Below are positions 561-63,613 of a DNA stretch of 64,000 nucleotides, piece after piece. The DNA is from Nereocystis luetkeana (Eukaryota; Sar; Phaeophyceae; Laminariales; Laminariaceae). Position 1 is the first letter of the stretch. Each line of letters starts with the position of its first letter. The notes below the pieces were generated by a model. The model saw only the letters and a program-made list of their open reading frames with translations. It was not told the DNA's origin and did no database searches. The stretch lies in NCBI GenBank assembly GCA_031213475.1, contig JARUPZ010000031.1, positions 436,501 to 500,500 on the forward strand. Direction: 5' to 3'. The position numbers and the translations under genes were made by a program.

Positions 561-1059
561 ATCAACAAATGAAAATTGAGCCAAGAAACTCAATGCTAGG
601 ATCAAAAAGCACAGGGAGGCATACCATAACACCCCCAACCATACCTGGTACAAAATACACATACGAACCACGCGAGGAAAACATCTCAAACGCACGAGAA
701 GGACGGACATCTAAGAACCAGTACCTATGTACGAGAGGGCCCCCTCCCCAGCGTCTGCCGTCCCCACGTCATCAACAACATCACAAGAACACCCAATACA
801 AACGTCCTAAAAACTACGCAGGGGGCGTACCACATCGAACCCCCCAAACGTATGTCCTCATGCCGGGAAACGCATCCCACTTTCACTCAAAAATACGAAA
901 AACAAACAGGAAATGCAAACCAGCATGATCTACCAAGCGATACCCCTTGTAAATAACACCAAGCAAAAACATCCACAAACCACTCCGGAAAAAAACATCA
1001 CAGGTTCCTCCCTCGGCGTCTGTCCTCCCCAAATCCGAAAAATCCTCCAACCACCCTCT

Positions 1060-1315
1060 CGCCAAAATAACTCGTGGCCCGAGAGCTTGAACAAACCGTC
1101 GGCCAGGGGGTGAGGGAGCCCTCGCCAAAATAACGCATGGCCCCGAAAGTTCGAGCAAACTGTTGGCTAGGAGGTTTGGTGCATCCCGTGAGGGAACCCC
1201 CTCCGCTAATCCTCCGAGCACCCCTCGCCGAAATAACGCAGAGCCCCGAAATTTCGAGCAAACTGTTGGCTAGGGGGTTTGATGCCTCCCGTGAGGGAGC
1301 CCCCCCTCTCCCCCT
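1060..1315 (+). repeat. ~105-bp tandem repeat
   Basis: Units carry CGCCGAAATAACGCAGAGCC, CGAGCAAACTGTTGGCTAGG and CCCGTGAGGGAGCCCC; two full copies and a partial one. Confidence 0.8.
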
Positions 1316-1681
1316 TTGCTCCGACGACAACCAAGGCCAGTGTGCAGGTGGTACGTGCTGCCGTATTGATTCCGAATTCTGCGCCGTAGAGAGAGGAAGG
1401 GGGAGATAACGAGAGAGAGAGATGGAGACCGTGGGCCTCGCGGTTGTGTCACGTAGCAATGAAGCGCGCGCGCCGGTACTCAACGAACACCGATACTCGA
1501 CGATCGAGTTGATACATCTGTAGCGGGTCAGTGCTGCGCCTAAAACGATGTTGTATTGCAATCATAAGCTGGACGTCTCAGATGAAAGGTTTGTTTCGTG
1601 TGCTACCCTCAGCTCCATAGCCGCGACTTCCAGATCCACACTCCCTGTATCGTAGGGTGCAAAAATGTGTGGTATGGGTGT

Positions 1682-1883
1682 TATTACGGGGGACCATAGT
1701 TAACCATTTTAGAACCGCAGTTCCGTTTTGGGGGCAAACCACTCAAATTTCAAGTAGTTTGTCCCCAAAACGGGACTGCGGTTCTATAGGGGTTAATAGG
1801 ACCAAATACTGTTAGTAAAAAGGGTTAAATATATAGGTTTTTATGTATTCGAAAGGTCCTATTAACTATGGCCCCCCGTAATA
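1682..1883. mobile_element. M1 MITE (TA target) interrupted by an M2 MITE
   Basis: The ends TATTACGGGGGACCATAG and CTATGGCCCCCCGTAATA form the M1 inverted repeat. M1's internal TTAA has been split by an M2 element (1700-1796) flanked by TTAA on both sides. Confidence 0.9.
1700..1796. mobile_element. M2 MITE (piggyBac-like, TTAA target), nested in M1
   Basis: TTAA + CCATTTTAGAACCGCAG .. CTGCGGTTCTATAGGGG + TTAA, a near-palindrome of about 90 bp. The interrupted M1 supplies the empty site (ATAGTTAATAGG), so TTAA duplication is shown directly. Confidence 0.92.
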
Positions 1884-2330
1884 GTATACCTGCACTAAAC
1901 CACGCTGAAATGGACATGATGTGCAGTATTTTTCACACTAAAGTGCCGTACCAAATCTGGCGTTGTACCCCGATCACTGTTGCTTCCTCCCGACACTAAA
2001 TAAATCAGGAATGATGCACCACAATGCTGGTCCTCGCGGCTATGCCAGTTACGCAATCTTTTGATGGTGCTGCAAGCGACCATACTGTCTGCCGACGCGC
2101 AAAGCACTGCCGGCGTCGCTCGGTAGCAAGAGCGGGGTGGATTGATACCGGTAGCGCCCCCGTAAGTAGCTGGTCGACCTACTGTCGCGAACGAGGGCAA
2201 CCTTATAGTGCTACCAGACTCAGGCGGTGACGCGGCCGCCTGTGCTTGGCACCAACTTGAGGGTCACCGACTTATCAGGGGTGACCTTCCCTTTCATTTC
2301 TCTATATGATTCCTGGTATGCTATGACTAC

Positions 2331-2439
2331 TATTACGGGGGGGCATAGTTAACAGGACTTGGGGTATACATAAAAACCTATATATTTAACCATTTTTACT
2401 AGCAATATTTGGTCCTGGTAACTATGGTCCCCCGTAATA
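2331..2439. mobile_element. M1 MITE
   Basis: TATTACGGGGGGGCATAG .. CTATGGTCCCCCGTAATA with the usual centre (TATATATTTAACCATTTTTA). Confidence 0.9.
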
Positions 2440-2441
2440 GT

Positions 2442-2834
2442 GTGTCTCGTGCTTTTATTGTTTTTGTGTGTTTGTGTTTGTGTTCTTGTTTCTGGCATTT
2501 TCACATCAACGACAGAACTTGTCGAGCGGGCTTTAGACCACCACCTTCTGCGTCACCCCCGTGGGCTTGCAACCCACCCGTGTGCCGAGAGGGGAGGGAG
2601 GTTCCCGAGTTTTCACGAAAGGGTCGATAGCACAGTGGCCACAGAGAGGGTGGTCGTCGTGGTGACAACGACCAGCCCTACGACCGTAGGCAAGTCTGTG
2701 CTGTGCGAGATGTAGTACGAGCGATCGAGGACCGAGCCCGCCCCCAGGAGCGGTTGAGCGGTAGGTGAGCTCGCCCGCTATACGCTCGCTAACGAGGAAG
2801 AAGAATGGAACGGAACAGACGGTCCAAACAGTTA
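2442..2834. other. No feature recognised
   Basis: GC-moderate unique sequence between an M1 MITE and R1 with overlapping open frames on both strands; none resembles a known protein. Confidence 0.5.
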
Positions 2835-3727
2835 GGTGCAAACAGACGACTTGCAAACGCCAAGAGCTCCATGCTCCATCCAGGAAAACCCGAACGCCGC
2901 ATACCGTATGATACGTACGTACATACGTACCGTACTTATTTTATCCTGTGGATATGTACGAAGGAAGAAAAAGCACAGCACAGCACGGCACAGCAGCAGC
3001 TCCCTTGAAAACAACGAACTTTTCTAAATGAAAACGAAAATAACAGGGAAAAAAAGTCATCCCCGTCCCCTGTCATGTACCAGGTAACTATGTTCTGCCA
3101 GATTGGAACAGCTTGCACCGGTCAAGAAAATAAATAATCGAACAACAGAGATTCTCTCTCAGCCTCGCACGCCGCCCGCCCCTCTCGCGACCACCTCGCC
3201 ACCGGTTCGGTCCGGGTAAAAAATTCCTCCCTCTCTGCCACAGTGAGCCCCGTCGCCCGCCTCGCGTGAAGCCCGGTGGTCACCGCGGCCCTCGTTTGCC
3301 AGCTCGACAATTTTGGTGCTCAGACTGCGGAGCTCTCTCTGTGAAATTCAGCTTGGTCGCAAGAATAACCACCGCTTGAATATTATTTTGCAGACCAAAA
3401 CGACCCTTATAGACTCGCACATAATATAACCGACCCTACACCAGGAGGCCAGACAGAGCCCATTCATGCTTCCCTCGTGTCTCGAAGCACACGCGACGCT
3501 TGGGCACGAAAACGGCGACCGCTCTCCGTCCAACCTCCCCTCTACCAGGCAACACCCGCTGACACCCGCGACGGCGCCGGGCTCGCCCACGGTGCCGTGC
3601 ACGCACACAAAACAAAGAAAAAGAAGAAGAAAGGGAAAAAGGCTCTCGCGCGCAAGTAGTAGGAGGCGGTATCCAAGTGGGAGCTCTGAGATGCCAGGGA
3701 TGTACCAACCGAGCACGCTCAGAGAGT
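2835..3727 (-). repeat. Repeat R1, inverted copy
   Basis: The reverse complement starts TGAGCGTGCTCGGTTGGTAC at 3727 and follows the copies at 10.5 and 11.6 kb to about 2835 (GTTTGCAAGTCGTCTGTTTG). No recognised protein is encoded; open frames differ between copies. Confidence 0.8.
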
Positions 3728-4199
3728 GAGATATCTGCAAGTGAGGCTATCGCGCTGGTCACTGGTACGCCACTCTGCAGTGTTTTCATGTTGGCATCGT
3801 ACGATGTTACGATATGAAATTCACTCTTCACATCCCGGTGCTGCTTTCTCTCCCCAGGGCTGCGCGGGCGCGGCGTTGTCCTGTCCGAGCACCGCAGTTC
3901 GCACGTCACTGCACTACTGTAGAATATGAGCTTGCATGCGCTCACAGATCGAGCCTTCTCTGTCAATCCGTCCCTGTTGAAGGCAGAGCAAGCCTTCCCG
4001 TTACTGCTGTACCAGGCATGCCGTACCAGTATGCCGCAATGATAATGATGATGTTCATATATCAGCTCGCTTCCCTGAAATTCTGCCTGTGGTAACGAAA
4101 CAGGCCGTAACAAAAATGCATCTCGGTGGGAGAGAACAAACCCAGTACGAAATAGTGCGCACGGTAGTATCATACCAGTCTGTAAGGGAAACGGTACTA

Positions 4200-4299
4200 T
4201 TAACCCCTTTAGAACCGCAGTCCCGTTTTGGGGACAAACTACTTGAAATTTGACTGGTTTGTCCCCAAAACGGGACTGCGGTTCTAATAAAGGGGTTAA
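4200..4299. mobile_element. M2 MITE with TTAA duplication
   Basis: TTAACCCCTTTAGAACCGCA .. TGCGGTTCTAATAAAGGGGTTAA in shortened form; centre GACAAACTACTTGAAATTTG. Confidence 0.92.
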
Positions 4300-4647
4300 T
4301 ATTATTAACGAGCTGTGGTGTACCATCCCGTATCATGATTTGCAAGCGAATAACACCAGAAACATTTCCATGGTATTCTATGTACACTCGGAAAAAAAAA
4401 AAAGAGGAAAACAAAAAAAGGAAAAACACGGACGAGGGAACATAAAAAAGAAGATAAGGAAAAAGAAAGGAAAAAATGAGAGTATGCCCCGTCGGTTCGA
4501 GCCGACACCAATGAGCGGCCCCGACGTGAAAATCGGCGAAGCATCGCGTCACGATTTTCAACGCGCAACAGAACAGCAACGCCCTACAGCAGCACCAGGT
4601 ATTAATACACGTAGTTTTTACTTTGTCTTTCTTCCCTGGCGGGCTCC

Positions 4648-5034: not shown

Positions 5035-5395
5035 CGCATAGATCAGATAGATCATCCACGGATCATCTATAGATCATTCACACTCAACGATCTAGATCTT
5101 TCGGGGCAGGTATCTTCCTGATCTGTATGATCTAGCTCGTGTTGCCGGGTGGGGAGCCGTTTAAATCTGCATGATCGAGGACTTGTTCCCTGGGTTGGAT
5201 CTGTACTATACAGATCCTGCACAGCATCTCATAACGGCGGGTTAGGAGCTGTAGATGATCTATCTGATCTACCTGTAGAGGGTATACATGTAGATGATCT
5301 ATCTGTAAATGATGCATCTATCGATTATCTATCTGTAGATGATCTATCCGTAGATGATCTATCTGTAAATCATATACCTGGTATCTGCACATGAT
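5035..5395 (+). repeat. Repeat R4 with GATC/GATA tail, copy 1
   Basis: The unique part holds a hairpin GGATCTG..CAGATCC (5198-5217) and CTGCACAGCATCTCATAACG. A tail of TAGATGATCTATCTG units follows, about 9 units. Confidence 0.8.
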
Positions 5396-5945: not shown

Positions 5946-30333
<24,388 letters not shown>

Positions 30334-31149: not shown

Positions 31150-31735
31150 AAACGGTTGACGTGAATACGCTTACCGTATAGCACGTGCGATACGATAACG
31201 CATACCTGGTACTGTAGAACACGTGTGATGAGATAACACACAATATAACACGTGTGATACTATTAGTAAAAGATAACACGCCCCGCTCCCTCGGACGATT
31301 TTCAAGGCCGATTTTTCTCGGCTGTGGGAGAAGGTGCAAACGCCGAGCAATGCATGCGTCTTCTAGCCCTACCTTTTTCGATGTGTTGTGTGCCCCCCCC
31401 TGGGTTTATAGAGAAGCTCGGCTTGTAAATTCGTCCGAGGGGGTGTGTCGACTCATGACACGTTTGTGATTTTATCACCCGTGTGTTATTTTATCACCCG
31501 TGTGTTATCTCATCACCCGTATGCTATCTTATCACCCGTGTGTTATCTTACCACCCGTGTGTTATCTCATCACCGGTGTGTTATCTTATCATCCGTGTGT
31601 TATCTCATCACCCGTGTGTTATCTTGTCACCCTTGTGTTATATTATCACCCGTGTGCTATCTTATCACCCGTGTGTTAATATCCTATCACCCGTGTGTTA
31701 ATATCATCACCCGTGTGATACGGTAGTTTCTTCAG
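31150..31735. repeat. Foldback repeat with 19-bp GTGTTATC minisatellite
   Basis: Left part has GTGTGATGAGATAACAC and CCCTCGGACGATTTTCAAGG; right part has the inverted CTTGTAAATTCGTCCGAGGG followed by about 13 units of ACCCGTGTGTTATCTCATC (31470-31725). A related inverted piece lies at 26550-26640. Confidence 0.72.
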
Positions 31736-33610: not shown

Positions 33611-34463
33611 TACTCGCCGCCCAGTTTTTACCTCTATATAAAAGTAAAGAGTGCGTTCGGACCGCAACTCGCCCTTCTCCATTTTTCTATATACATATTA
33701 TGCCGTTTTTTTTAAGCTTCATGATACCCACGAGAACTCGCAGAGTTGGGTTTCGTTAAATAGCACTCTAAAAACAAAAGCCGTTACTCGTACCAGGTAA
33801 GATATTTTACGGTTGGTTGTTGGTTCTGTTTTTCAAACCATGGCCCAGTCATCTTACTACCTGGTACTGTGCATCACACGTTGCGGCACCTACGGTATAT
33901 AGCTTGACCAATTGTGATCGACTTTTCACCGTACCGGCACGAGAAGGTTCCGTTTGTGTGTGCGTGCACAGAGCCCGCCGGTACTGGAATTGGTGCCATG
34001 TGCGTTGAGCGCGGCCGACCAACGGCGGAAAAAAGCGTTGAATCACACACGCAAACAGAGAAACTCAGAATGCGGCAACCTACCCTCGTATACGACTCGT
34101 TATGACGAGGCTTTTTTTCCTTGGAAAACCAAGAAAAAAAAGGCTCGCGCGCCTCACTATAAGACAGGATAAAAACTATTCGACGCCGACAATTCGAAAT
34201 CGAAACCTGAAACCCAAAAAGGGAAAAGAGAGGAAAAAACGAAAAAACAAGCTAGCATCAGGGGGAAAAACACCCAGTGGGATTGCGCAGAATTTCGCAG
34301 ATTTTCAGCGCGAGCGGGTGTTGAACAGAGACCGACAGATATGCGGTGTCTCAACTCCTCATACAAACCCGACCAACTACAACAAATGGTTACGAGTACA
34401 CGCATTTATTATTATTATGCTTGCCATCCGACAATGTGTAGTAGTGTTGTTCTAATAAACGAC

Positions 34464-34581
34464 TATTACGGGGGACCATAGTTAATAGGACCTATGGTAT
34501 ACATAAAAAACTACCAGGTATATATTTAACCATTTTTACCAACAATATTTGGTCCTATTAACTATATGGTCCCCCGTAATA
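34464..34581. mobile_element. M1 MITE carrying a TA-CCAGG-TA micro-insertion
   Basis: Standard M1 ends. Where other copies read ACCTATATATTT this one reads ACTACCAGGTATATATTT, a gain of seven bases with TA on each side. An extra TA also sits in CTATATGG near the right end. Confidence 0.92.
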
Positions 34582-35535: not shown

Positions 35536-35774
35536 TCATCGAGAGTGTTCGCGTATTTTTGGCCGAAATTCCTACTGTACGAGTATACCTGGTAGCACTT
35601 ACCACGCGTCGGTGGTAATAATGCTGAATGAACCCAGACGGACATGAAACCACATGCCGGGGGGGGCAGCAATGGATTACACCTACCTGTGACCACGGCG
35701 AGTTCGACACAATAAACACGCGTGATCAATATGATTTCGAAATTCGATATCTGCATAATACCCCCGGGTGGGGG

Positions 35775-35984: not shown

Positions 35985-36910
35985 GCGGGCTTGTATATGG
36001 ATGACATCTTCAATGTGTTAATTCAATTTCCGGTGTAGCCACTTCCAGAGACGGCAATGGGAGTACGGTGTATCTGCCTCTTTGGGTGTGCCTTACCATG
36101 AACACTGCGTGATACGATCAATTCCCTTGTGCGGAGTAAAGGTTCTTTACCTCGCACAAATGATCTAACTCGACGACCAGCTGTGGGCGACCTCCCCCAA
36201 AAAACAAAACGATACCCTGGTTATCTAGCTCACGTAGTGAGCGGCATGTTTTACAGAGTCGTCGCCAACCTACGCCAACCCAACCTATATGTTATACTGC
36301 TTTGAATGAGGCTGAAAGGCCGGTAATTACATGGGGTCTGGTATTGGGATCGTACTTGTAGTGCTTGGGAGGCGCATCTTGAATGGAAAACCAGGGGTTT
36401 TGCCAGCACGGCACAGGTCTTTCTCTCAGTCTCTCATAGTGCACGAAAGGACTACAGCTGCTCTTCTTCTATCTCTTGAGCGTTCAACACACGTGAGCCC
36501 CACCTGCTCAATTGGGAAACCTAACAAGGGATACAAAAGTGTCCCGGCCTTGCTGAACTTAGCAAGTAAGTGGCATCGTCGGCAGCACGACCCTGCGCGT
36601 GAAATCACAATGAGTTTCGAATCCATTGGCCCCGACCTTGAACCTACCAGGGGGGCGGAGTGGAGGGCCAAAACGCGTTCGATACTTCGTAGGTACCTGG
36701 TATCGAAAATCGTTTTCGATATTTCGAAGCTCGATGGGATGCCTCCAACGCTATAATACGTATCGAGTATCGGTGATTTGTGGACTTTCTATTTCAGGGT
36801 GTACCCCGCACCGAAAAGTAGGCCTCAAGCACTCACGCAGTAAACAATTACGTTGCTTTGTCTACTGTCTACTGGTATATAAGAAGGAGTGACAACGGCG
36901 CTCCTTACTT
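35985..36910. other. Unassigned interval
   Basis: A 141-codon + strand open frame at 36331-36756 has no recognised domain and no coding-like support. Nothing else is seen. Confidence 0.4.
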
Positions 36911-37154: not shown

Positions 37155-40100
37155 ATACCTGGTACATATATAATACCAGGTATGAATAAGGACGAACTTG
37201 ACGAAAATATTAGCCCTCACTTCTTGGGGGGCGCTAAGAAAGTTTGGGAGGGGGCGGGGGGGGGGGGGGGGATCTTGCTCAATTATGAGGAATACCCTTG
37301 ACTGATGGGTAACCGATCGATTTTTTTTATCTTCACATTTGACGTTGTCGACGACACGGGTTTGAATCTCACTTCGAACATTTATTGTCTAGAAACCCTT
37401 GCGCGTGCGTTCCCTAAAAGCATATCTCACTGGTTCTCCAGGAGGTATTGAAACGAAGCGGGTAGGTCAACGTTCGGTCGTACACGGTGCCGACGTGCCA
37501 AATATTCCGACGCTCAGAGGAGGGGGCGGGTGTTGTAAGGATTACCCTGGGCTGGGTGATCGATGGATCTGTCAACCCCATGGGTCAGTATAGGTAACAC
37601 CTTCACACGGCGGCGAACACTACTACTACAGTCAATATTACTGGTGAACCGAGCGTGAGGTGTTGAATTATTGTAACATCCCCCGCCCTCGGAATGGCGG
37701 GATCTTTTAGAGACGCGGCAATACCCGAACTTTTCTTTTCGTGTTGTACGTACTGTCATCACCACAGGTTGGTGCCTCGTGAATAATATAGTTGTGTCCC
37801 CCAACATTTTTAATTTTATTATTGTGTCCCAACAATCCGGCCGTTCCTAGTCCCTACGGGGAGGGGAAGGGGGAAAGTAAGTCGTTGGTTACCCTGTTTT
37901 TAGGTAAATACGAGTGCAGCTAATATTCTGATCATCTTCACGGACGTGGTACAACCGAAGAACATGCCTCGTGCACCTGCTACTTCTGCGACGTACGTAG
38001 CAGTACGTACACACAGTATCAATAGTAGGATTTAAGAATAGAACGTAATCAGAAGGAAGGAGCAAGGACAGAGAATGGAGTAGACAAGCCGAAAGATGGC
38101 ACAGCAGGGAGGTAGACTTGGTGCATGGGTTTCCTTTTGTTTGTCCTGAGGCTTTCTTCTTTCGGGAAAGTTACGAGTGATCAATGTTGAAGATCATGCC
38201 GCACATTGTCGGATGGCGAAGGAAATAATAATAATATTAATAGTAAATACATTTAATAATAGTGGTAGTGTACTAGTATGTAGTAGAGGTAGCAGGAGTA
38301 GTAGAAGTAGTGGTAGCAGGAGCAGTCTTACTTCACTGCAATTGCAGTGGTAACGGTGGTAATTCATTACGTATATTTGTACTACCAGGTATAAGTTGAA
38401 TCATCATCAAAACCACCACTATTTTCTCGCGGAGTTGCGGGTGCGAGGAGTCTCGAAGGCAGGAGTCAAAACAAAGCCGTCTTGATGCCAGGTACGAGTG
38501 CAGGGTACATCTGCCGGGAACCTCGTGGACGAATTAGATGGAAGTCTACGTGAAAATCGGTGAAAGGGCTGCAATTCATTTCGCAAGAGCGCAATACTTG
38601 GTGTATCGTCATCGTCGTCATCAACACCAGCATCGCCTCCATGTGACCATGACCACCATCTCCATCCATCACCACCACGATTATGATCGATCACATGATA
38701 ATAATATTTGTAGCTTAGTCGGTGTTTAAAGCACACCTCGGCATCAGCTTTATTAGTTTCATGTGCTCCCTCTATATCAACGCACCACCACCACCACCAC
38801 CACCAACCACCCCCTCCCCGTTCACCGCGTCTATCAAGAATAAAACCGAATCAAATCCCAAAAAATAAAATTCAGCCCATTCCCAAGAAGGAATGAAACA
38901 ACTGAACCCTTTATCTAGTAATGTCTAACTTGGTTCCGCTTTCTAATGCTACATCATCCCCTAATATGAGCTACTGTACGTATCATGCTTCAGCCAACAC
39001 GTTCACAAAATATGACACAAGCCAAAAGACACCCCTCGCCCCGTCGAGTCAAGCCATCACACGTCTCGAGGTGTCCTGCACACAAACACTGCACAAAACT
39101 CATATATGGTCCGCCACGTAGTGTGTGCCTTGACTGGCCGCGACCCTTCCCTCCCCCCCGGGAAATGCCACTTTCCTCCTCGGATACCACCAATCGTTGA
39201 TCCGTCAGGAGGTTCCACACTGCGAGGGAGACGGATGCCAAGGAGGGAATAGGAGAGGGGGTGAGGTGTAGCGAGAGATGTACACAGCCGTACACAACGA
39301 CCGCTTCTCCCTACGCCCTCCCTCCCTCCCCTCCCTCCCTCCCTCCCTGTACGTATATTATCTATCGCTCGCTGCTGTATCCATCCGACTCCATGGTTGA
39401 TTCACGCCGACACGCATCAACCTCAGGACCGGAGCAAAAAAACAAACAACAACAACAACAACAACAACACCGCAGCACAAAACTCACGCTGAAGTAGGCT
39501 GCGGACCTCTTCCTTCCTTGCTGCTCGCGTCGCTCTATTCGCGCTGGGCCTTTCGAAACCCACGTCTCTTCTTTTTATTTTTTTTACTGCCGCTGCTCCG
39601 CTGCTACTGTAGTTAATGCCATATATGACAACTCGAAACGGGAAAGCAAGGAACCACGGACCGGCGCGCCATGCACCTCCATGCACCCTTCGCATTTCCG
39701 CGAAATAAATATGCCCTCTCTCTCCAGCCCCCCAAAAAACAACTAGAAATAAAGCGAAACCCGGACTCACGTCAACTTGAGACATATCGGGCCGAATCCG
39801 TCCATTCTGGACTACACGCCGGCAGGCTGAGGCTGGCTGGCGCGCTGCTTCCGATAGTCCAAACCGCGTGCCCGAAACATACAATTTTTCCCACACCAAG
39901 CCTTAAAGAGTCGTCTACGGCCATTTTCTCCGCCCTTGTAAGGGAGTGCAGGCGAACGCATGTACCTATCGATACTGTAGACTTGAGGGTTATAAAATAA
40001 ACAACATCTACCGTTCACCGGTCGTTCCCCCCCACGCGCTTGCCCCCAGCCAACCCTGCTTCGTACCTGCTCTACGTACGGATGTGATCACCCCAGATTT

Positions 40101-42264: not shown

Positions 42265-43805
42265 GGCTCATCTGTGCAGTAAAACCAGGTACCTGGTATG
42301 ATATTCGACAGCGGTATACCTGGTACGTACCTGGGACCAGGGGTACGAAGCAACGTATCAAGAAAAATAATCAATGATTAAAATACTTTTTGCCGGCACC
42401 GGCAGGTATGACCGGCGGAACGACTTTTTGTCAGCGGAAAAAAAAACACCCGTGGTAGGGTGTATGTATATCTTATCCTCCGTCACCCATCCCCCTGGAC
42501 TGACCCTGAATTGCTCTACATCTGTTCACATCATACCGAGCAAGTACTATAAAGTATTGTAGAATACATGATATGGTTGGGTTGCACACGACGGATGAAA
42601 TAGAAGACAGAAAAACGCACTGATTCCTGCTTCCCGGGCGGGTATGGAGTGTGTGGGCCAGGCTTAGCCGGTAAAGGGGAGGCTGGGCGGGGGGGGGGGC
42701 GTGGCGCATTCAAGGAATGGATACGGAAGGACGGAGCGCCGCACAACCATTCGATCGAAGTACGCGCGGTCTGCACCGTCCCGTGATGTACCATATACCA
42801 TCATGCCATGCTGCTGCTGCTGACTGCTGCGCTGCTCGCTGCGGTGCTCGATGCCACCAAAAAGAGCAAGAACGCCTGAAAAAATAGAAACCTGGTTGTG
42901 TCAGGCGTTGTTTGTACTTACACCCACGAATTATGATACCGGGTATTACACACCAGGCATAAATAAATACCATATACCTGGTGACGGAACATAACTAAGA
43001 TTTAATAGGGATGGCAGTCAGACGTGTTGTGAGTATCTTCCGAGAAAATAGGTACTCTGTAGGAGCAAGAGAGAGCCCACACCCACATCGGTACAACACA
43101 CACGGTTCTGCGGCTGACGCCGCCCGCCATTGAAGCGAGCCCGAGACCTTGACAGCGGCGGTAGCGGCCTTTTAGCTGATGTACGAGTAGCGCTGTACGG
43201 GAAGAGTTACACCAACTTTAGAAGCTTGCGTTCAGACGGCAATTCACTCGTTAGACTGAACACTCTCAAAAGACTCGCGTAACATCGCAACGAAACTTGA
43301 CATGGGAATAACCCAATGACCCTTCGCGGAGACAGTGCACAAAAAAAACAATAGTTACCAGGTATCATTTTAGGACAATTTATCCACGATATACCACGTT
43401 GTGTGTCCGACACGCTAACTAATCACCCGAATATAGTTTCACACGACAAGTCAGAACACATTGCTATTAATGCGTAGTGTCCTGCAATGAGCCCCACGAC
43501 GTCAACGCACGTCAAACACTCTCATCTCGTTTGTATTCCACGATAAATGCGTCCAGGTAGGGAGGGACCTAGCCTTCAAGGCATTCCTGAAAAAATGCCT
43601 GAAGTACTTTTTTTGAAACATGCGTGCCTGAACTACTTTTTTCGTACAAACCTTGTCTTTCGCCAGGCACGCGTTAGGCACGCCTAAAGGAGAACTGATG
43701 ATCGCGTCTACGTGAGCGAAATTTAAATCACTACTACGGGGACGTTTACGAGCCATCCCCGGATTTCACCCCTTGCGTTTCGGGTTGGAGACAGGGTTAG
43801 GGTAA
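42265..43805. other. Interval upstream of the ankyrin exon; no exon found
   Basis: AT-moderate sequence with several TACCWGGTA motifs (42285-42330) and a short repeat with TGCCTGAAGTACTTTTTT at 43575-43690, recurring at 44745-44830. Further 5' ankyrin exons are expected on (-) but were not identified. Confidence 0.45.
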
Positions 43806-43809: not shown

Positions 43810-43943
43810 TATTACGGGGGACCATAGTTAAATAGAACCACATATTGTTAGTAAAAATGGTTAAATATATACTGGTAGGTTTTTATGTATACCATAGGTC
43901 CTACCAGGGGTATTAACTACCTGGTATGGTCCACCGTAATAGT
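43810..43943. mobile_element. M1 MITE carrying three TA-bounded micro-insertions
   Basis: Compared with other copies: ATATATAGG is ATATATACTGGTAGG, GTCCTATTAAC is GTCCTACCAGGGGTATTAAC, and AACTATGG is AACTACCTGGTATGG. Each gain lies at a TA and leaves TA on both sides. Confidence 0.92.
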
Positions 43944-44692: not shown

Positions 44693-45291
44693 GCCTGGAT
44701 CTCCCAAAATTAGCGGGAAGGGGATGTAAAAAATGAGGTCTGTGCATATCTGAAAAAATTGCCTGAACTACTGCTGTCTGTACCTGTTTGAAACAGGCGT
44801 GCCTGAAATACTGTTTTCGCGCCCATCTTGTCCATGCAAGTGTAGGGTTTTATCTTGTATTTTTTTCAGGAATTCCATCCCTTTCCAAAACAATTTGAAC
44901 TCAACATAGAAAAAGGTTTCAGGCATGCCCCAGACACTCTTTTACGCGAATGTCTTCAATAGATACCTGGTAGGCACGTTCGAGGCAGCATCCAGGCATT
45001 TCGGGGACATTTGTCCGTCTAAAAACATATCGCCTGCCGCGTGCTCATCTCCTTATCTCCACGTCTCTAAAGGCGCCTGCGGCGCTTCTTCGACACCCAG
45101 ACCTTCGTGTGGGACACAGGACTGCTGTACAGGGGCAATGATCTCCTATCTCACGTACAGCAGCAACAAAGAAATGCATGGGGCCTACGATGTATCTATA
45201 TCCATTTTCCCTTTGTTATTTTTTTTTCCTTGGTTCTTTGTCTTGACTCTATTTACAAGAAGTGGTGTTTTTTATTTCTTTTTTCTTTTTT

Positions 45292-45812: not shown

Positions 45813-46498
45813 CTACAGGTAAGAAATGATCTTACCGTAAAAAACGAAACGTCACCCATCATGAAAATCTCCAACGTACTATTCATTTAAATAACAGCAG
45901 TATTACTGCTGTAGTATGGCTGGAGCAACGGAAACGTGAACAGACTGCTGCGTACCAGGGTACTGCTGTTTTTGTTCTCACGTTCACTCCCAAATCAGGA
46001 GTGGGTGCAACAAAAACTACTACTGGTATAATACTGCCTGTGCCTGTACGTACAGAGCCCGTTCCGTGCGGTCTGCGGGGCTGTCCTCAGACGGTCGTAC
46101 GAGCTTCTGGTACGGGCACGTGCGGATTGGAAGGAAAACAAAATTCATCATGAAGATATATTCGTACCCAGTCGAACTGCACACGTGTACACCATACCAG
46201 GTACAGCAGTATCAACATCGTCGGATCAATATATCAGATACCAGTATACTCCGGAGTGCACCACAAGATCACAAGATCACAACCACACACGCACACCAAA
46301 TATACACGAAAACGATACGACCCTGCGGCTAAATTCGACGTACATGTACTGCTGCATTTGTTGCTGCTGTACTCGTATATATATACCGTCCGTTACATAG
46401 TAATAAAAAATACGTCAGACTTTCTATTTTTTCCTGTAAAAACGTCCAACTGATTATTGAAGAATTGCAAATCCCAGCGAAACGATTTTATGCGACAC

Positions 46499-47391: not shown

Positions 47392-47867
47392 TTGGTCCTG
47401 TGCTTATTTAATACCTGGTAGGAAAGACTCGAGGTTGATTCCGCCCGTACGTAACAATACTACGATATTTGATACCGGCATTGATGCTAATATACAAATT
47501 GAAGGGTGGGACGTGGCTTACTCCCACTATTAATATTAATAGATTAATAGTGGCGAATTCTTATTAATACTTGTATTCACTAGTATAATGCCTAGGACTG
47601 TGTTTTAGGAAAAAACACCCAGAATTTGAGTAGTTTGTCCCAAAGACGAAGCTCGAGTCCTAAAAAATAAGCCCAAAAACAAAAATACGGAGGCGATACA
47701 TATTATTACCGGATAGCAGCAGCTGCCTTCCTTTTGTTGTCGATTGTGATGCATTTTTCGAACGACGGGGCGGAAGGGTTCCCAGTTCAGGGATTGAATC
47801 GTTTGAGCTCCCAATTCCCATACGAAAATAATTTTGGGAACAGTTTTTTTTTTTTTTCTCGTGTAGT

Positions 47868-48105: not shown

Positions 48106-48208
48106 AGAACAAAAGGGATGAGGAACACAAAAACAAAAAACGTGCCCATCGTACAAGCATGTTTTTTCCGAGCACCGGGTACTCATCTTTTCTTTTTTGC
48201 CAACGACG

Positions 48209-48289
48209 AGAAGACAACACACACCATGTTGTTTATATTGTACCTGGTACCAGGTACAATATAAACAACATGGTGTATGTTGTCTTCTC
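48209..48289. repeat. 80-bp near-perfect palindrome centred on GGTACC
   Basis: 40-bp arms from GAGAAGACAACAC to GTTGTCTTCTC with one mismatch and no loop. The central 16 bp are TACCTGGTACCAGGTA, two TA-bounded CCWGG units. Confidence 0.93.
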
Positions 48290-48376
48290 ATCGAATTGTC
48301 CTTTCTACCCAGCTTCATCACTGGTGTCCGTCCTGGTTCCTCACATAAGAGAGATACCCCAGGGTACTGCCGTACT

Positions 48377-49199: not shown

Positions 49200-50965
49200 G
49201 AACGAGGTGTGCATGTCTACGACACAGAGAATTCGTGCTACGATAAGAACGTACCTGGTACGAATTTCACAATTCATGTTCCCAATTACAATTATTCACA
49301 ATTCATACCAGGTACCTGGTACATCACGAAAGTTAGAGGTAAGCGCATCCTTCCCAAGCACAAAAACGCACGTCACGCGCCAGGACGCCACAAATTACTT
49401 CACAGGTCAGCCAGGGCCAAGAGGTGAAGAATCTGGCAGTGACTGAGAGCTGTTTCGCCTTGCCGAGTACCAGGTATTTTTCAGTTATTTATGGGTCTAT
49501 ATTTATTACCAGGTATACCATAAGTATTCATTCATGTACGAAGCATTCATATTTACTTCTTTTTAATAATTCTCCTGCCTGTATGACTACTATTAATAAT
49601 CATATTGGGCAGTACCTGGTATCAGGGACAGGTGTACTGGGTACGAGTAGTTACGTTACACAGCTGTTTGTGCTATTTAATAAATATCAATACGATGGAA
49701 CCATGCGAGACAGAACAAACTGAGCAGGGAGAAGGGGCAGCAACGGCAAGCAGACTATCCTATTAATAGTATGCACACGCATAGACTACTTATGTATACA
49801 TGAATACTAAGCATGCACATGCCTGTACTCTGTAGCCGAGCCGAGACCAAGCATGCCAGGCATCTATTCTGTCCTTTGCTCTGTGCATCTGTCAGCCATC
49901 GTTCCGTCTTGTGTTCTGCAGACATATCGTGCTAGGATATGAAATCTACTGACAATAAATTTTATACGAAAGCGAGTTGAAGACGTATACTTTATAAACA
50001 TTATACCTGGGTAGGTTATAAATATAACCAGGTACTCCGTATATGCAATTTTAAAGTTGTCTTGGAATTAGTTGGATAGGAGATACCGAAGAGTCGCATC
50101 GCGGACGTGCGGACGCCGGAAACGAAAAAGGAAGCACCCTTCATCTGGTCATGTTCCCTGAAGCAAGTTTCCGCGAAAACATGCAAAATATGAAAATATC
50201 GCATACCAGGTACCAGGTCGTACGAGCGAACAAAAGTTGCGGACTCTTGTCATGTCTTTTTTTCTTCTTGTTTTCGGCACGTACGTTCCACGAGCTCTTC
50301 CTGCCTTGTGGAATCAGGAATTCATCCAACCCTCCGAACCCCCGAAATCTTAAATCGGTTCACGTTATTTGTTGATAGTTACCGCGGTAGTAGGTACCCG
50401 GTACCTGGTATATTATATCAATACAGCTATGACGTGTCCTCGTTCCCAGCTCCTTGCTTGTGTGTTTGTGTATGTTCTTAACACATTGAACTTTACACAG
50501 TTGTTGTTTGTATTATCATACTCGTATTGATATTAATAGTACACCACAACCCTGACCACAATCAAACCATTAACCATGTATGTGCGGGAATATACCGGAA
50601 ATAAATGTAAACCATACCTGGTAGTCGTCCATTTGTTTTTGGGTGGGGGCACACCGGCAGCCCTCGCTGGCAGAGCTCCTTGGACTAGAGTCATACCCCT
50701 GTGAATGCCGTGGTGGGGGGGCGTCGGTTCGGCACGGGCGTCGCGGTGGTTGTTAGAATCCATCATCTGGAGTGCGTCCTTGGGTAACCGTACTACCAGG
50801 TATGTTGTACCTGTAGCCTGTGGTAAATTACGCATTTAAGTGCTACCGTAGGCCACCGGAACAATAGTAATACAAAGCGAATTATATAATTACAGAATTA
50901 CGGTTCAAGGGAGACCTGTTCGAGGCAGGAGGAAAACGGGTTTATACTACTTTCGGCTTTCGGCA
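49200..50965. other. AT-rich interval dense in TA-bounded motifs
   Basis: No gene recognised. At least eleven TACCTGGTA/TACCAGGTA motifs lie here, the densest stretch in the window. Confidence 0.55.
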
Positions 50966-51617: not shown

Positions 51618-51738
51618 TTCACCCGTTCAGGACCCCAGTCCAGTTTCTGGGGAAAACTACTTACCAGGTACAAGTATAATTTGATAATTTGATAATTTTA
51701 GTGCTTTGTCCCCAAATATGGGACTGCGGTGCTAAAAG
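51618..51738. mobile_element. M2 MITE carrying a TA-CCAGG-TA micro-insertion
   Basis: CACCCGTTCAGGACCCCAGT .. GGGACTGCGGTGCTAAAAG. The centre reads ACTACTTACCAGGTACAAGT where related copies read ACTACTTATA or ACTTGAAA. Confidence 0.82.
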
Positions 51739-51739: not shown

Positions 51740-53810
51740 CAGCAGTATCAGATACGGTACAAGGCACCATTAGGTATGAGATCATGAGCAAAAACGACGT
51801 CAGCTGTGCGGGTACACGAATAGAACATGAAGAAGGTAAGGGCGCGAAATACGAGCATTTAGGACGAACAGAACGCACTTGACCACGAGTAGTCCACTCG
51901 TACTACGGGAGTCATGAGGCTAGTCAACGTGTTCGTGTCCGGCGTATTGGGCGCATACACGCGGTGTATCGGCGTATGTATACCTGGTACAAAATACCAG
52001 TGCAAAATACCACCAGACATCAAGTTCGTACAAATATTCATCTTGCAGAATTATCTTGCAACAACCGGCTGCTATTGAATAAAATATGCACGAGTAGCAG
52101 TCGTACTCGTCGTACCGCGAATAATATGCTTCCGGTTGGAGGCCAGCGAAGAACGGCAGGCGTTTTCGGAGAGAGAAAGAAAGAGGGAGGTCGAAGGGCA
52201 ATGCACCAAGGACGAATGCGGACATAGTTGGGAGGGTCGACTGGTCAAGACTCCCACCCAGAAATATCTCGACCACTCCGCCGCACCGGTGCTGCTTTCG
52301 CACTGCTCCTTCGCTGTTGCCTCGCGATCAAGTGTGGTACGTTTTGACTTCCAGTTTCTACACAGGTTCAACACCTGCAGCCCAGGCGGGCGGCGGCCAC
52401 CACCACCATCAACGTGGCCGGCGTTTGAGCCGACACGGGATGGGCCGGGAGGTGCGCCTAGACTACCACTGGACGAAAGGTAGAGGCGGAAAGATCTTCT
52501 GCGCAGCGAGGTTTTACAGACTATACGACGTATATACCTCGCGAGGAAAGAAAGGACGGCAGGCAGATGGTCGGGCTCGGGGCGCTTTGCGAGCCACACG
52601 CCAGACGAAAAGAAAAAAACTGAGGGCAAAAAAAAAAACACAAAACGAAAACAATGCACGCCGGGATCGACGCCGGCGTCTCGCGGTGTTGTGATGCCAT
52701 GCCACAGGTATCGATCATGCGATATGCGAGGAATCGGCGTGACACCACCGCCTTGAGAGCGCCTACCCACTTGTGGGCACCGGGCCTGATCTCTCTCGAC
52801 AACTATACAGTCACGCTGATCACCGTCGCACAATCTGCCGGCGGCATTTGTTTTATCCGTACCTTGGGGTAATAATAACGATTTAATTAACCTGATTTAA
52901 CCCACTCACCCTTTCTCTCAATATAGATTCCAAGTACGCCTGAGGACAGGTCACCCCGACGTTGGCTGGCGGTGTCGCGCAGGGTCGAACAACTTCTACT
53001 TGTCGGTGCCGCGCCATGGCCCCTCGCCCTCCTGACTCTGTACATGCTTGGTACCCGGCAGGCTCGAAAGACGGGGCTGGTCCCGACGCCTGATTATGTT
53101 GATCTCGCCAATCTGAAGCGTCCATCGGAGCTAGAACTTCGCCGGAAGAAAGGCCCAGAATTTCGGAGCCCGCCCGGGAAAATAAACGGGCGGTCACGGG
53201 CGAGACGTATCGCACCGCACCGTCCACCTGTACCCTTCCCATCGGACCTCGAGAGGGCTTCGGTGAGCTCACGATTGAGCTTGTATCGAGGCGTTGATAG
53301 CGTCGTAATCTCGATCTCTCCTGTAGTGTCTGCTTGTGCTCCTTTCGTCAAAGAGACGGCCTTTGCTTTGCCATCAAATCGTAAAACAAAACTGGCTAAC
53401 CAGTCACCACGCCACCACTGCACACCGTGACGTTGTTCCGGTTTGTCCCAGGCGTCGACTTCTTCGAAGGGAGAGGTGGTCTTGGGTCTCGGGCGACACT
53501 GGTGTGTTGCTCGTGCAACGCTTCTCGTGGTCAACTAGGAGTAGCTTTTACGCGTTTTCGAAACGAAAACAAAAAAACTGAAAATATGTACTGGTACGTA
53601 CGAATGAGGTTGTGACAAAAATCGTACTGGGTGACGTGTACACGATCTCGATCCAAACAGCCTGGTGGCAAAACGTGGCGGCGATTCTTCAACCTCATAA
53701 AAGATGGAAGGCGTTGACAAGTTGGGACATTGGCCATAAATCGTAACTCGAATCTGTCGGTCGTGACACCAGGACGTCACGACCACCATCAGTGGCCCGC
53801 GACCACAGCA
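51740..53810. other. GC-rich interval with unassigned ORFs upstream of the MidA exon
   Basis: Long overlapping open frames on both strands (52072-52833 and 53094-53534 on -, 52972-53430 on +). The + frame has a hydrophobic stretch (LLLVGAAPWPLALLTLYML). No domain was recognised, so coding strand and status are undecided. The promoter of the methyltransferase gene should lie at the right edge. Confidence 0.4.
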
Positions 53811-53813
53811 GGC

Positions 53814-54180: not shown

Positions 54181-54504
54181 GTTGGGTTAGGTGCCTGGTT
54201 CTTGTTGAGAGAAGCCAGGGGTGGGGGCGTGAACTGGAACTGAGAGAATCATGCCCGCGATTTACTGCTTCTTCACCGCCGTTTAGACTGTGGATGTCCA
54301 CGTCATTCGAACGACCGCACGACCACACCCACGAACAGACAGGAGGACATGATGGCGGTGTGATGTCGGCTGTCACCCCTACAGCAGTATACCTGGTACC
54401 AGGTACCAGTATATCACTGTGTTCGAAATCTAAGTACACTTTTACTATTATTATTCAATAAAATGGTCCTTATATTTAGGGACAGAGGCAAATGCTGGTT
54501 GGTA

Positions 54505-54848: not shown

Positions 54849-54861
54849 CTATATATATATA

Positions 54862-55208: not shown

Positions 55209-56261
55209 CTTAGGTACAGATGATAACTGAAGCACATCTACTCGTACAAAAAATAAAAATAAAAAGTGAGGTCCGCGCACGCACGTACCAGGTATGAGAT
55301 ATGCATCCGGAACAAGTCGCCACAGAAACCGAGAAGACCACATACTACCCAGAAAAAATAGACAGGATGAAAATAAAAACTCGACGTCGAAAAATCAAAA
55401 TCAAAATCGAAAAAATCACGAATTAATAAATCCAAAACGGAAGAGAGAAAAAAGTTCAATTAAGGCAAGGAAGCAATAGAAAGTAAGAAATCAAGAAAGG
55501 AAACACACAAGAGAATGCGCATATTTTCGCAGATTGTAGGCTCGCACGCTACGCGAGGGGTGTAGAACAGAGATAATAACAAAAAAAACACACATACGTA
55601 CTCCGCCACTAAGAACACCAGGGAAGCAAAAAAGAGACTACGGGTCGATCTTAACGAGGAGTGTTTTTTAGTTTTTTCAGGTATTTTCCCGATTTTGTTT
55701 CGGGAAAAACCAAAAAACTTCACACCCCCAAAAAGTCTTCTCGAAGTTTTTAGGTATTCCGTCTTGTGTTTTTGGGGTTTTTCGCCGTGCTAGCCGTGCT
55801 ACCCCCCACGAGCAGACAAGGCTGGTCAGGGTCGTCCCTAAGGCTCTCCACAGACCATGGTCGACCGCAGCAAGCTCAACGTATCCATGGGGCTCTCTTC
55901 TGCGCGTCGACGAAGGCGCACCGACGAAGAACACGGAGGCCGCCTGATGAGAGTAATCACCGCTCTACTCGTAGTGGAACTTTGCTGCGTTGGGCGTTGT
56001 AGCGTGACGAGTTGGTGATGGATCTCACTCCCCAAGGCACGGACACCTGCTGCCTACGAGTCAGGCCAATTGGGGCCACCGCACGGATGGTTTCCGCCAG
56101 CGCTGCTGCTGTAGTGACGGTTCTGTGCCGGGTGGGCGATATTTCGCGAGCCAACCGAGGCACATACTCGATAAGGTTCAACCCTCGCTGAATTTGGTGA
56201 TTTGCCGAAATTTCAGGGAAAAAAACGAAATACAGTACTTGTCGTTAAGATCGCGACCCTA

Positions 56262-59839: not shown

Positions 59840-61345
59840 CCCTGCCATTCTGCGCACGTGCGTTGGCGTCAACGGTTGTAGTCGTGGTTGCAGGCATCTT
59901 GTGCCGTTCGACGATGCCTCGTTCTCATCCTTATGCCATTTCCGCATGAAAACCTCCCCCCCTTGCTCGACTCGTCGGAACCATCTGCCGGCTTTCTATC
60001 CTGGCTCGCGCCACCCATCGAGCTTGAGGCCAAACTCCTTGAGACCCTCCTCAAGTTACCTCATCCAGTCCCACTTCTGTCCTCCGGAGTAACTCTTACC
60101 CCTGACCATCTCCCCAAACATCACCCTCTTCGGCAGACGCTCCTCTCCCATGCGTGTCACAAAGCCCGCAAACAAAAGCCTACGTCTGCGTACCGTCGTC
60201 TCAACGCTCTCAAGAGTTTGTCCTGAGAAGCGCGCTAGCATGCGATAGAATGTGGTTTTCGCGCTTTCGTTTTCGCCAGTCGAGGCATCGGAGGAGCATC
60301 TTGTGGTGGATCTCCCGTAACCTGCCGTACTCAGTCTTGCTCGGGCTCCAAGTAAACCAACCGTAGAGCAACGTTTCGATCACCTCGGCTCTCAGCATCC
60401 GCACCTTCAGGCGTAGGCGCACACCCGGGCGGTCATAGATTTCCATCTTATACCGCCCGAAGCACGCCCATGCCCTCTGGAGTGGACGTGTTACCTCGAC
60501 ATTTCTGCCCGTCCAATCTGCACCGATAGCCCCGCCCAAATACACAAACTCGAGAGTTTGTTTGTACACTTGGCCGGCTGCGGTGACGGTGAACGGCACG
60601 TTCCCCCCATCTTTCGTTTGCAGACACATTTCTACGTCTTGGCCTCCGACACCGTCAGGCCGAACGCGGCACATGCAGTCACGATCACCGTCATCATCCT
60701 CTCCAGGCCGTTTGGTGATCGCGATACAACGCCCGCATCGTCAGCATACAGCATAGCCCACAATGTCTGGGCCTCTTCATCCTTCCCCTGTCGATCGACT
60801 TGTCCGGCCCGTGCCTCCCCCCTCTTCTTTTTCCCCTTCTCCCTCTTTCGTTGGAGTTGCACCATGCTGCCCGTGATGGCTTTATCAGCGGCGAAGCGTT
60901 TCTCCGCCACACGCAGCTGTGAAACATGTTGAACAGCAATGGCGCGAGCACACACCCTTACCGAAGACCCTGCTCCACTTCGAACATATGTGAGCACTCG
61001 CCATCATCCAGCCGCACGCATGCTCGCGTGCCGTCGTGGAATTGGCGGATAACGGAGAGCATTCTAGGTGGCACGCCAAAGCGAGTCAAGACAGCCCACA
61101 GGAGGGCTCGGTCGACGGAGTCGTAGGCTTTGGTGAGGTCGACAAAACACATGAACAGCGGAGTGTCCTTCTTCCTTTCCAATTATTGCAAGCGTCGCAC
61201 CACAAACATCATGTCGACCGTCGACCGTTCGGGCCGAAAGCCACACTGCTCCTCTGGCAGGATGCCTTCCCGTTCGCAGTAGTCGCTGAGGCGGCGCGCG
61301 ATGAGTTTGAGGAGTACTTTGCCGGCATGCGCGAGTACGAGTACA
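59840..61345 (-). mobile_element. LINE fragment L1x: reverse transcriptase domain and C-terminus, 5'-truncated
   Basis: Reading (-) strand from 61345: [78 protein letters not shown] and LWAMLYADDAGVVSRSPNGL are RT motifs including the YADD catalytic box. Then come FVYLGGAIGADWTGRNVEVT, AEVIETLLYGWFTW, RRRRLLFAGFVTRMGEERLP and VFMRKWHKDENEA, the usual post-RT region of non-LTR elements. An in-frame stop (RRLQ*LERKK) and several frame shifts show it is dead. The N-terminal endonuclease part is missing. A C-rich/low-complexity tract at 59772-59835 marks the 3' end. Confidence 0.88.
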
Positions 61346-61428
61346 AGTAGTTCTTGATGGGCGCGCGCTCTCTGCGATCGAAGCTAGTTTTATGCAGGGT
61401 AATTATTAACTATTACGTACAGAAGCTG

Positions 61429-63613
61429 TTTCCTGTGCGGTTCGATTTTTGAGCTTCAGATTTTGACCCGATCTCTTTTTCAGATGTGAACTTGACACAT
61501 CGAAACAGTCTTCCTATGCGGAAAAATCATATTTATTGCGCGTGCAGAGATTACAGCAAACGCCGAGACCAACGGCTGTTGTTGTGGCCTGGCGCCGCGA
61601 AGAGACGCGCTGGGTGCGCTGCCCTGCGCGTAGGACCCAAGCGTCCGAGCCGAGGCTGACTGCCTCTGGTCTGGCGGCGAAGAGACGTGGCGAGTGCGCT
61701 AGAGCCAATCTGTCTTGGTATTTTGTGTTTCACAGTGTGGCTGACTGCTGCCGCTACTGCTGCTGTACAGCAGTGTAGTCTACGAGTACGTATCCACGGA
61801 GAGGTGCGCGCGCCTAGTGCGGTGCTCTTGGTCTCTAGGCCCGAGTCCGCGCCAGCCGACTGTAGTCTGGCCACGGAGAGACGCGCTGACCGCGCGTCGG
61901 GCCCGAAGCGACGCCGCTATACAGCTGTGTCACCATCCAACTCATCGATCGTTCTGCTGCTGTTTGCTGTAGTGGATAACATCTTGAATTTAGAGAGCAT
62001 GCTATTTTTCGATTCGAAAATCTGATGGCCCAAGTCTCTGATTTTTGCTCAAAATCCGACCACTTAGGTCATCGGATTCTCAAATCGAATAACTTCCGGC
62101 CGGATTTTGCAAATTTGAACTGCATAAGCAGGGTCGTTCGTTTTTGAGATCGAAAATATAAATCTGAAGCTCGAAATCGAACCGCATAGGAAACATCCTT
62201 TTGAGTTGAGTTTTTTCGATTTGAGAATCCGATGACCCAGGTCGTCGCATTTTGGTCAGATTTTCAAATCGAAAAATGGTATGCTCTCTAAATTCAAGAG
62301 GTTATCCACGGCAGCGAACAGCAGCAGAACGATCGATGAGTTGGATAATGACACGGCTGTATAGCGACGTTGCTTCGCGCCCGACGCGCAGGCGGCGCGT
62401 CCCTCCGTGGCCAGACTACAGTCGGCTGGCGCGGGCTCGGGTCTAGAGATCAAGAGAAGCGCACTCGGCACGCACCTCTCCGTGGGTACTTACTTGAGTC
62501 TGTACTGCTGTACAGCAGCAGCAGCAGTCAGTCACAAAATGAAACACAAAATACCAAAAAGTTGGCTCTAGCGCACTCGCCATGTCTCTTCGTCGCAGCC
62601 AACCTTGGCTCGGACGCTTGGGTCCTACGCGCAGGGCAGCGAACCCAGCGCATCTCTTCCGCGACGCCAAACCACACTAACAGCAGTTGGTCTCGGCGTT
62701 TTACTCGAATCTCTACACGCACAATAAATCTGTTTTTTTTTCATAGGAAGACTGTATTTGGCGGGTGGCGTGTGTACCAGCTCGTAGCTGATGTGTACGC
62801 CTAGACTCGATTGCCGATGGCCGGTCAATACACAGTCAACTGTTCGAGGCAAACGTATAGTCACTGTCAGGTGACTTGTACGAGAAGCTTCAATAAAAGA
62901 GAAGAAGATGGAGTGGTGACCCCAAGCCACCACAGTGTTGATTGAGTTGCTCAGCTGGAAGCCGACGATGGTGAGAAAAAGTAGAGTGAGCTCACAGGGG
63001 AGCGGTGCGCGTGTGCGCTCGCGGCTCGAAACAAAGGGCGACCCCAACATTTCGTTCCGGAAACAAAATAGGGGAATACCCTTGACGTCAGTTCAATAAA
63101 AAACAACACGCAGACCTCGTTTTTACTGCAACGATCGATAAATCTTAGGGTACGCACTCGTAACCTATGTTGTTACTTCAATCATGACAAAATACTCTGC
63201 TACAGTACTGGTCCCGGAGGGATGCTGAAGATATCTTCTCTCTGATTTACCTGTGCCGCCGTAGATTCTGTACGTACGTACTACAGTAGATTCACGATAC
63301 TACTTGTTCGTGATACCTGGTACTTATTCTGTGTACGAGTGCACAGCAGCAGTAGATAGTGTAAAAAGACAGCTGCTGCTGCTGTATACTGCTGTATTTA
63401 AACACACTATATCCCACAGACTGGAAAACTGTCTGTTGTACCTAGAAGTACGTAAATGTATACCAGATGACGCAAGTGGTATCGAGTAACGACTATAATG
63501 GCTACTGACAAGTATCATCTCTGATAGACTGTTTCGATTTGCCAAGTTCATATCTGAAATGCGATCGGGTTAAAATCTGAAGCTCAAAATCGAACCGCAT
63601 AGGAAACGGCCTA
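61429..63613. mobile_element. Foldback element with terminal and large internal inverted repeats
   Basis: The outer ends GTTTCCTGTGCGGTTCGATT (61433) and AATCGAACCGCATAGGAAAC (63593) are inverted; the same motif occurs a third time near 62165-62195. Inside, arms 61504-62090 and 62215-62752 are inverted copies of about 550 bp, 85-90% alike by eye, around a 120-bp loop. Open frames on the arms are not recognised. Class unknown; foldback-type DNA transposon is likely. Confidence 0.75.

Follow-up and report, generated by a model that had tools for sequence, protein, structure and literature searches.

PlantMar elements, the mariner-like transposons with a DD39D catalytic spacing, have been described from plants and a few oomycetes (PMC7325037), and two of them, Osmar5 and Ppmar2, are reported to cut with a stagger of 1–4 nt that leaves end-derived bases between two TAs (PMC9632168). 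Putative footprints of Stowaway elements hold 2–4 bp of one end and 1–2 bp of the other (PMC1925063), and those of ZB and Passer are 0–3 bp and 0–4 bp long, respectively (PMC7913693, PMC9976928). The 64,000-nt stretch of DNA analysed here as a whole (contig JARUPZ010000031.1, positions 436,501 to 500,500; hereafter the window) is dotted with the palindrome TACCWGGTA, where W is A or T. Judged from sequence comparisons, each copy is probably (at a probability of about 0.84) the repaired empty site of a PlantMar-like element with a DUF7769 domain and DD39D spacing, which would have inserted at a TA and later been excised.

Counting exact matches to the two strand forms, TACCTGGTA and TACCAGGTA, gave 42 copies in the window (24 and 18, respectively; Table 1), in agreement with the roughly 40 noticed by eye in an initial annotation. 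All 17 positions named there correspond to a real copy, 13 of them exactly and four with a shift of 1–7 bases (38390 is 38383, 50613 is 50615, 55287 is 55286 and 63313 is 63314). The genome-wide count proposed in the same annotation is nowhere near expectation, as the 465-Mb assembly contains 182,395 copies (91,155 and 91,240 by strand) against 1,744 (883 and 861) for the motif read backwards, an excess of about 105-fold. A 285-kb sample was made up of the window, the surrounding 200 kb and seven small loci, some of which overlap. It held 115 copies, where a second-order Markov model predicts 2.3; two of the 115 are counted twice, as loci L004 and L006 overlap. In a filtered list from this sample seven other 9-mers outrank the motif by observed over expected number, five of the seven being simple AAT or CAG repeats. 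The central base is W; in the sample the version centred on C or G occurred 10 times against 2.6 expected, single-base variants 0–11 times each against about 1–3, and TACCWGG lacking the following TA was near chance (110 vs. 79.6), with a surplus mostly followed by CA or TG. Apart from a few that lie in repeats, the 42 copies of the window have flanks unrelated to one another. By a crude count, 19 of 101 sites lie inside the 90 long open reading frames of 264 kb, where 22.8 would be expected, so that depletion is not evident, although many of these frames are probably not genes. Raw transition counts were higher for the TA halves (34,188 and 34,300) than for CC/GG (19,414 and 19,692), and because these counts are uncorrected for chance, no age is claimed for the scars.

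In the empty-site test the two flanks of a copy were joined through one TA and matched, ungapped, against the sample. Paralogues with an empty TA were found for five of 121 testable sites, with 81–96% identity around the junction, and five other sites had an intact match, presumably reflecting the overlap of L004 and L006. Control TAN5TA sites yielded 16 empty and 187 intact matches among 1,011, and most of the 15 empty ones listed are TA or TAA repeats. Clear single cases are the copies at 11279 and at 34512 and 43918, the latter two inside members of a family of miniature inverted-repeat transposable elements (MITEs) here termed M1; L008 furthermore carries a double insertion where L006 has a bare TA. 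The alignment of paralogues with and without the motif, a comparison suggested by the initial annotation, shows gain at a single TA, and its view that CCWGG was inserted with duplication of the TA is borne out by these paralogues together with the symmetry of the flanks.

This symmetry is palindromic around one collapsed TA. On the left it comprises W at −7 and −3, A at −6 and a purine at −1, and the complementary bases mirror these on the right (115 sites; likewise in 244 flanks of 122 sites). Its centre is a single TA, as an insertion of CCWGG into that TA would predict. Flanks of this kind fit a TA-target transposase, the preference being of the integration type. Most other TA-bounded words tested lacked the combined pattern, several of them sharing the purine at −1, and the 4-base variant showed W at −7 and a purine at −1 on the side where it reads CCAG (32 sites). 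TACCWGG, as one half of the motif itself, matches the flank preference, which may explain why head-to-tail doublets (TACCWGGTACCWGGTA) arise; they number 15,917 genome-wide, against two for the control, and three lie in the window (Table 1). The counts imply that some 4.4% of TAs inside scars bear a second scar compared to about 0.8% of all TAs. The copies had been called scattered rather than tandem, which holds for most of them (over 80% lie outside doublets) and has to be amended for the 8.7% that start a doublet. By hand count, the doublets listed include 14 of the form CCAGG-TA-CCTGG and five of the form CCTGG-TA-CCAGG.

A profile search of the genome with DUF7769, which we take to be the N-terminal domain of plant mariner transposases, gave 19 matches. 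One of these belongs to a complete 2,016-bp element at locus L046, bounded by TA on both sides and with terminal inverted repeats (TIRs; CCAGTCCGACATTTTATATAGG) matching at 29 of 30 bases; the TIRs read 5'-CCAGTCCGACATT, so that the element ends are CCAGTC...GACTGG. Its open frame of 492 aa scores 30.2 bits for DUF7769 (cut-off 27), and the match at L045 scores 41.4 bits against the same cut-off, whereas a Tc3-type helix-turn-helix match in the transposase stayed below its own. The second and third catalytic aspartates have 39 residues between them (D358–D398 in L046, D416–D456 in L045), an assignment made by eye; the nearer aspartate in NSPD would give 34. The L045 transposase is 65% identical to that of L046 over 469 residues, and L045 looks rearranged. 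At L045 the 3' end region appears to be direct, not inverted, and part of the gene recurs nearby as an inverted duplicate. Among solved structures the transposase has no close relative, with one chain matching at an E value of 0.31. Ten further DUF7769 copies were probed with short end stretches, and five of the ten share an AATATA[AG]G-like motif, present at one end or at both; two of these five have TACCAGTC at one end. From its sequence the L046-type element appears mariner-like and PlantMar-like and is the likely source of the scars. The initial annotation had suggested a search for an intact TA-target transposon with ends CC.. and ..GG; L046 is TA-flanked and has such ends, which are CCAG rather than CCWGG.

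Exact element ends (TACCAGTCYGAC) occur 224 times genome-wide, against 63 for the control, and the first 100 matches listed include at least 11 facing pairs 0.56 to 4.9 kb apart; three of these pairs, located on C16, differ in their two ends and resemble a single duplicated segment. Flanks were read at both ends of five facing pairs and of L046, and 14 were scored with the target preference derived from the scars. Their mean was 1.55, compared to 1.21 for scars and −0.79 for all TAs; in 20,000 random draws of the same size this value was never reached. One element, at C10:10662628, sits in the TA of an older CCAGG scar, directly beside CCAGGTA, and its excision would make a doublet.

For overhang lengths between 2 and 6 nt, the predicted joints were enumerated and counted in the sample. 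A 4-nt CCAG overhang allows the dominant CCWGG (with one mismatch), 6-base joints such as CCAGGG (or CCCTGG) and the 4-base CCAG, CTGG, CCGG and CTAG, and the counts were 122 against 2.6 expected for CCWGG, 8 against 1.5 for the 6-nt joints and 51 against 14.8 for the 4-nt joints. Genome-wide, TACCAGGGTA occurs 11,422 times (control 409) and TACCTGGGTA 1,578 times (control 362). CCAGGG and CCTGGG differ at the third base only, and an origin of the extra G by slippage predicts equality; that TACCAGGGTA is far above TACCTGGGTA suggests that the third base of the element end is A, as in CCAGTC. Seven copies of TACCAGGGTA at C1:1305185-1308362 form a tandem array with 528-bp spacing and slightly inflate that count. 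A 3-nt CCA overhang also gives CCWGG, but not CCAGGG. The sample contains no CCASTGG (0.1 expected by chance), the well-paired joint of a 5-nt CCAGT overhang, and for this reason that overhang was not favoured; when fully overlapped it could still give CCWGG, though with three of five bases mismatched.

The proposed course of events would thus begin with a mariner-like element with the TIR 5'-CCAGTCYGAC, which inserts at a TA and duplicates it. Excision would leave a 4-nt 3' overhang, CCAG, on each flank, and the two overhangs would pair through CAG:GAC, i.e. a C:G and a G:C pair around a central A:A mismatch. Once the one-base gaps were filled and the mismatch repaired to A or T, TACC(A/T)GGTA would result, and other registers of pairing would give the rarer joints, the six-base TACCAGGGTA and the four-base TACCAGTA and TACCGGTA. 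As each scar would recreate a favoured half-target, some would be struck again and become doublets. The asymmetry between TACCAGGGTA and TACCTGGGTA and the shared target preference tie the element to the scars, and we infer that most of them were made by the CCAGTC family and not by a close relative sharing its first four bases. The initial annotation had already read the motif as a Tc1/mariner excision footprint, and the TA insertion, the CCAG element, the minor joints and the shared targets all favour that reading at the level of sequence.

Several observations weigh against this account. The 5' end of L045 is TACCTGGAGTCTGAC and not TACCAGTC, the latter being found in only two of the ten further DUF7769 copies, at one end each, and five of the ten lack a recognisable end. 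Negative scores were obtained for five of the 14 element-end flanks. Only five sites have a clean, ungapped paralogue with an empty TA, and no scar was found at one chosen TA of the M1 MITE, where empty copies were left uncounted and whose flanks were judged unfavourable as a target. Equal centre bases were found in 40 of the 59 listed plus-strand doublets (hand count), where independence predicts half. Moreover, the excess of ends corresponds to only about 80 elements, against 182,395 scars, a discrepancy of more than 1,000-fold; it is possible that a family mostly cutting and pasting at a stable copy number could leave such an excess.

The low copy number of exact CCAGTC ends also leaves room for another TA-target family, with ends starting CCAGG and a 5-nt stagger, as the maker of most scars, which we regard as unlikely. 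A fully annealed CCAGG overhang, which lay outside the enumeration, would give CCWGG with a central A:A mismatch, a shifted join could give CCAGGG, and the 5' end of L045 indeed begins CCTGGAGTC. Yet the 285 kb contain no convincing TA-flanked inverted-repeat element starting with CCAGG or CCTGG on both sides, the best pairs matching at 18 of 24 and 17 of 24 positions and beginning with scars, and no convincing one is found among the repeat copies of a 327-kb sample either; TACCWGG without its TA is near chance, and a CCTGG end would predict TACCTGGGTA, the rarer joint. The numbers could also be explained if the transposase cut a TA and joined in the end-derived overhang alone, so that most sites never held a full-length copy. 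For each exact end there are several hundred scars, and for each estimated element more than 1,000, and the target preference is that of the integration step. This micro-insertion is nevertheless quite improbable, given that full excision is known to produce Tc1/mariner footprints (PMC7913693, PMC9976928, PMC9632168), that an element is seen sitting in the TA of a scar, and that scars can come to far exceed copies when a mobile family keeps its copy number constant.

Two explanations without a transposase fare worse. A palindrome so extremely over-represented might be a functional word under selection, such as a binding, methylation or restriction site comparable to HIP1 or to CCWGG, the Dcm/EcoRII site. 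Selection predicts neither a 7-bp TA insertion inside MITE copies nor integration-type flanks, doublets and asymmetric joints, and the testable cases were gained by insertion, not by selection on point-mutated sites as for a HIP1-like origin, so that we consider it very improbable. Spread of the 7-mer by replication slippage or tandem duplication is hardly credible: doublets do exist, may favour identical units and may in some cases owe something to slippage, but slippage is unable to found a new site or to favour TACCAGGGTA over TACCTGGGTA, and it does not account for the large majority of copies outside doublets or for the mostly unrelated flanks of the window's 42 copies.

Set beside known systems, the excision reading agrees with PlantMar (Osmar5, Ppmar1/2 and the Stowaway MITEs) in DD39D spacing, DUF7769, short TIRs, TA duplication and an element length of about 2 kb, and with Sleeping Beauty, ZB and other Tc1-type elements in the TA target and a scar formed through annealed self-complementary overhangs. 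In the Sleeping Beauty scar the overhangs likewise anneal with a central A:A mismatch. In the present case the CAG core is placed one base deeper, which makes the joint 5 bp long, unlike those of ZB and Passer. Internal eliminated sequences of Paramecium, like other eliminated DNA, are also bounded by TA. They resemble the present case in number, with tens of thousands of sites, and differ in that scars, not eliminated DNA, remain here. Unlike the PlantMar and Stowaway cases, the TIR here begins CCAGTC, the footprints quoted for Stowaway deriving from CTCC.. ends (PMC1925063), and no report found comes near this number of scars. HIP1 of cyanobacteria is alike as a short palindrome vastly over-represented genome-wide (PMC4390886), but it is linked to methyltransferases, whereas TACCWGGTA is gained as a TA insertion. 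Among the matches listed, the open-access literature held no report of the motif or its scale, and those to the 9-mer itself were unrelated by title and probably primers. The mechanism thus belongs to a known type; unusual are the 5-bp length and almost invariant sequence of the joint and how often it occurs.

The footprint studies compared here deal with single sites or excision assays. In the present genome the exact 9-mer alone accounts for 182,395 sites and, at 7 bp each, about 1.3 Mb of added sequence, which would form a natural record of transposase landing and host rejoining in which joint spectrum, target preference, repeat strikes and decay are measurable at very large numbers. It would also separate a transposon's mutational output from its copy number, so that few copies do not have to imply little impact, and if the host lies outside plants and oomycetes, the reported range of DD39D elements would be widened. 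Some protein fragments tentatively resemble those of brown algae. A bolder extension, to which we give somewhat less than even odds, is a low-copy 'nomadic' cut-and-paste transposon whose scars are a genome-wide mutational signature at about one TA in 130 and are themselves favoured targets, a large share of the lineage's small insertions then coming from a single enzyme, possibly through events without a stable copy.

Table 1. Features of the window. Footprint denotes an exact TACCWGGTA match.
Feature	Position	Strand	Remark
Footprint TACCTGGTA	642..650	+	exact match
Footprint	3078..3086	-	exact match; paralogues with empty TA
Footprint	5375..5383	+	exact match; empty paralogues in short tandem repeat, weaker case
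Footprint	7897..7905	+	exact match
Footprint	11279..11287	+	exact match; empty TA in paralogue at sample position 133720 (C31, 510.2 kb)
Footprint	15190..15198	+	exact match
Footprint	17513..17521	-	exact match
Footprint	23973..23981	-	exact match
Footprint	31203..31211	+	exact match
Footprint	33791..33799	-	exact match
Footprint	33858..33866	+	exact match
Footprint inside M1 MITE	34512..34520	-	empty TA in 21 spanning matches
Footprint	35586..35594	+	exact match
Footprint	36694..36702	+	exact match
Footprint	37156..37164	+	exact match
Footprint	37174..37182	-	exact match
Footprint	38383..38391	-	exact match
Footprint	42290..42298	+	exact match
Footprint	42317..42325	+	exact match
Footprint	43356..43364	-	exact match
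M1 MITE copy with three TA inserts (CTGG 43870, CCAGGGG 43902, CCTGG 43918)	43810..43941	+	compared to M1 consensus
Footprint inside M1 MITE	43918..43926	+	exact match; empty paralogue
Footprint	44964..44972	+	exact match
TACCAGGGTA, predicted 6-nt minor joint	45953..45962	+	
Footprint	46195..46203	-	exact match
Footprint	47412..47420	+	exact match
Doublet TACCTGGTACCAGGTA (sites 48241, 48248)	48241..48256		exact centre of near-perfect palindrome 48204-48293
Footprint	49252..49260	+	exact match
Doublet TACCAGGTACCTGGTA (sites 49306, 49313)	49306..49321		
Footprint	49468..49476	-	exact match
Footprint	49507..49515	-	exact match
Footprint	49613..49621	+	exact match
Footprint	50204..50212	-	exact match
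Footprint	50402..50410	+	exact match
Footprint	50615..50623	+	exact match
Footprint	50794..50802	-	exact match
Footprint	51662..51670	-	exact match
Footprint	51981..51989	+	exact match
Doublet TACCTGGTACCAGGTA (sites 54390, 54397)	54390..54405		
Footprint	55286..55294	-	exact match
Footprint	63314..63322	+	exact match

Other transposons and repeats were considered as sources and rejected. A DDE_1 profile search gave 28 pogo-type matches, and the pogo-type elements, with the TIR CAGTACCGGCCCGCTAGTAAG in L039, L042 and L043 and CAGTACCGG ends unsuited to CCWGG, predict the scar TACAGTA. The flanks of the M1 MITE (TTACGGGGGACC ends) do not show the target preference of the scars, the M2 MITE (TTAA-CCCTTTTAG) is piggyBac-like, and none of 17 pairs of TACC-ended inverted repeats in the 285 kb was a convincing CCWGG-ended element. 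PF13358 (DDE_3) gave no match at E 0.001 among the 30 candidates scored, three of 14 control genomes being positive, and PF01359 (Transposase_1) gave none in a search in which no control genome was positive either.

Some of these repeats were recorded in their own right. The pogo-type elements of L039, L042, L043 and the 285-kb sample have CAGTACCGGCC(C/A)GCTAGTAAG-like TIRs and TA duplications, and TACAGTA, their expected scar, is in 3-fold excess in this sample (100 vs. 33.5). Two further TA-bounded words in excess there, TACGAGTA (48 vs. 8.8) and TACAGCAGTA (25 vs. 0.6), are possibly scars of additional families. M1 is about 105–110 bp long with TA-TTACGGGGGACC ends and has 33 copies in the sample, among them those at window positions 34464, 36915, 43810 and 46499, and M2 measures about 95 bp, with TTAA-CCCTTTTAGAACC ends and a piggyBac-like target (window 4200, 6410, 47053 and others). 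At window position 4173, TACCAGTCTG is followed by other sequence and may be the remnant of an element end. Long inverted repeats occupy 61801-62480 (225-nt arms, 88% identical) and 63731-64000 (135-nt arms, 87%, no spacer), and the fragments at 60213-61003 (MLYADDAGVV) may come from the reverse transcriptase of a long interspersed nuclear element (LINE).

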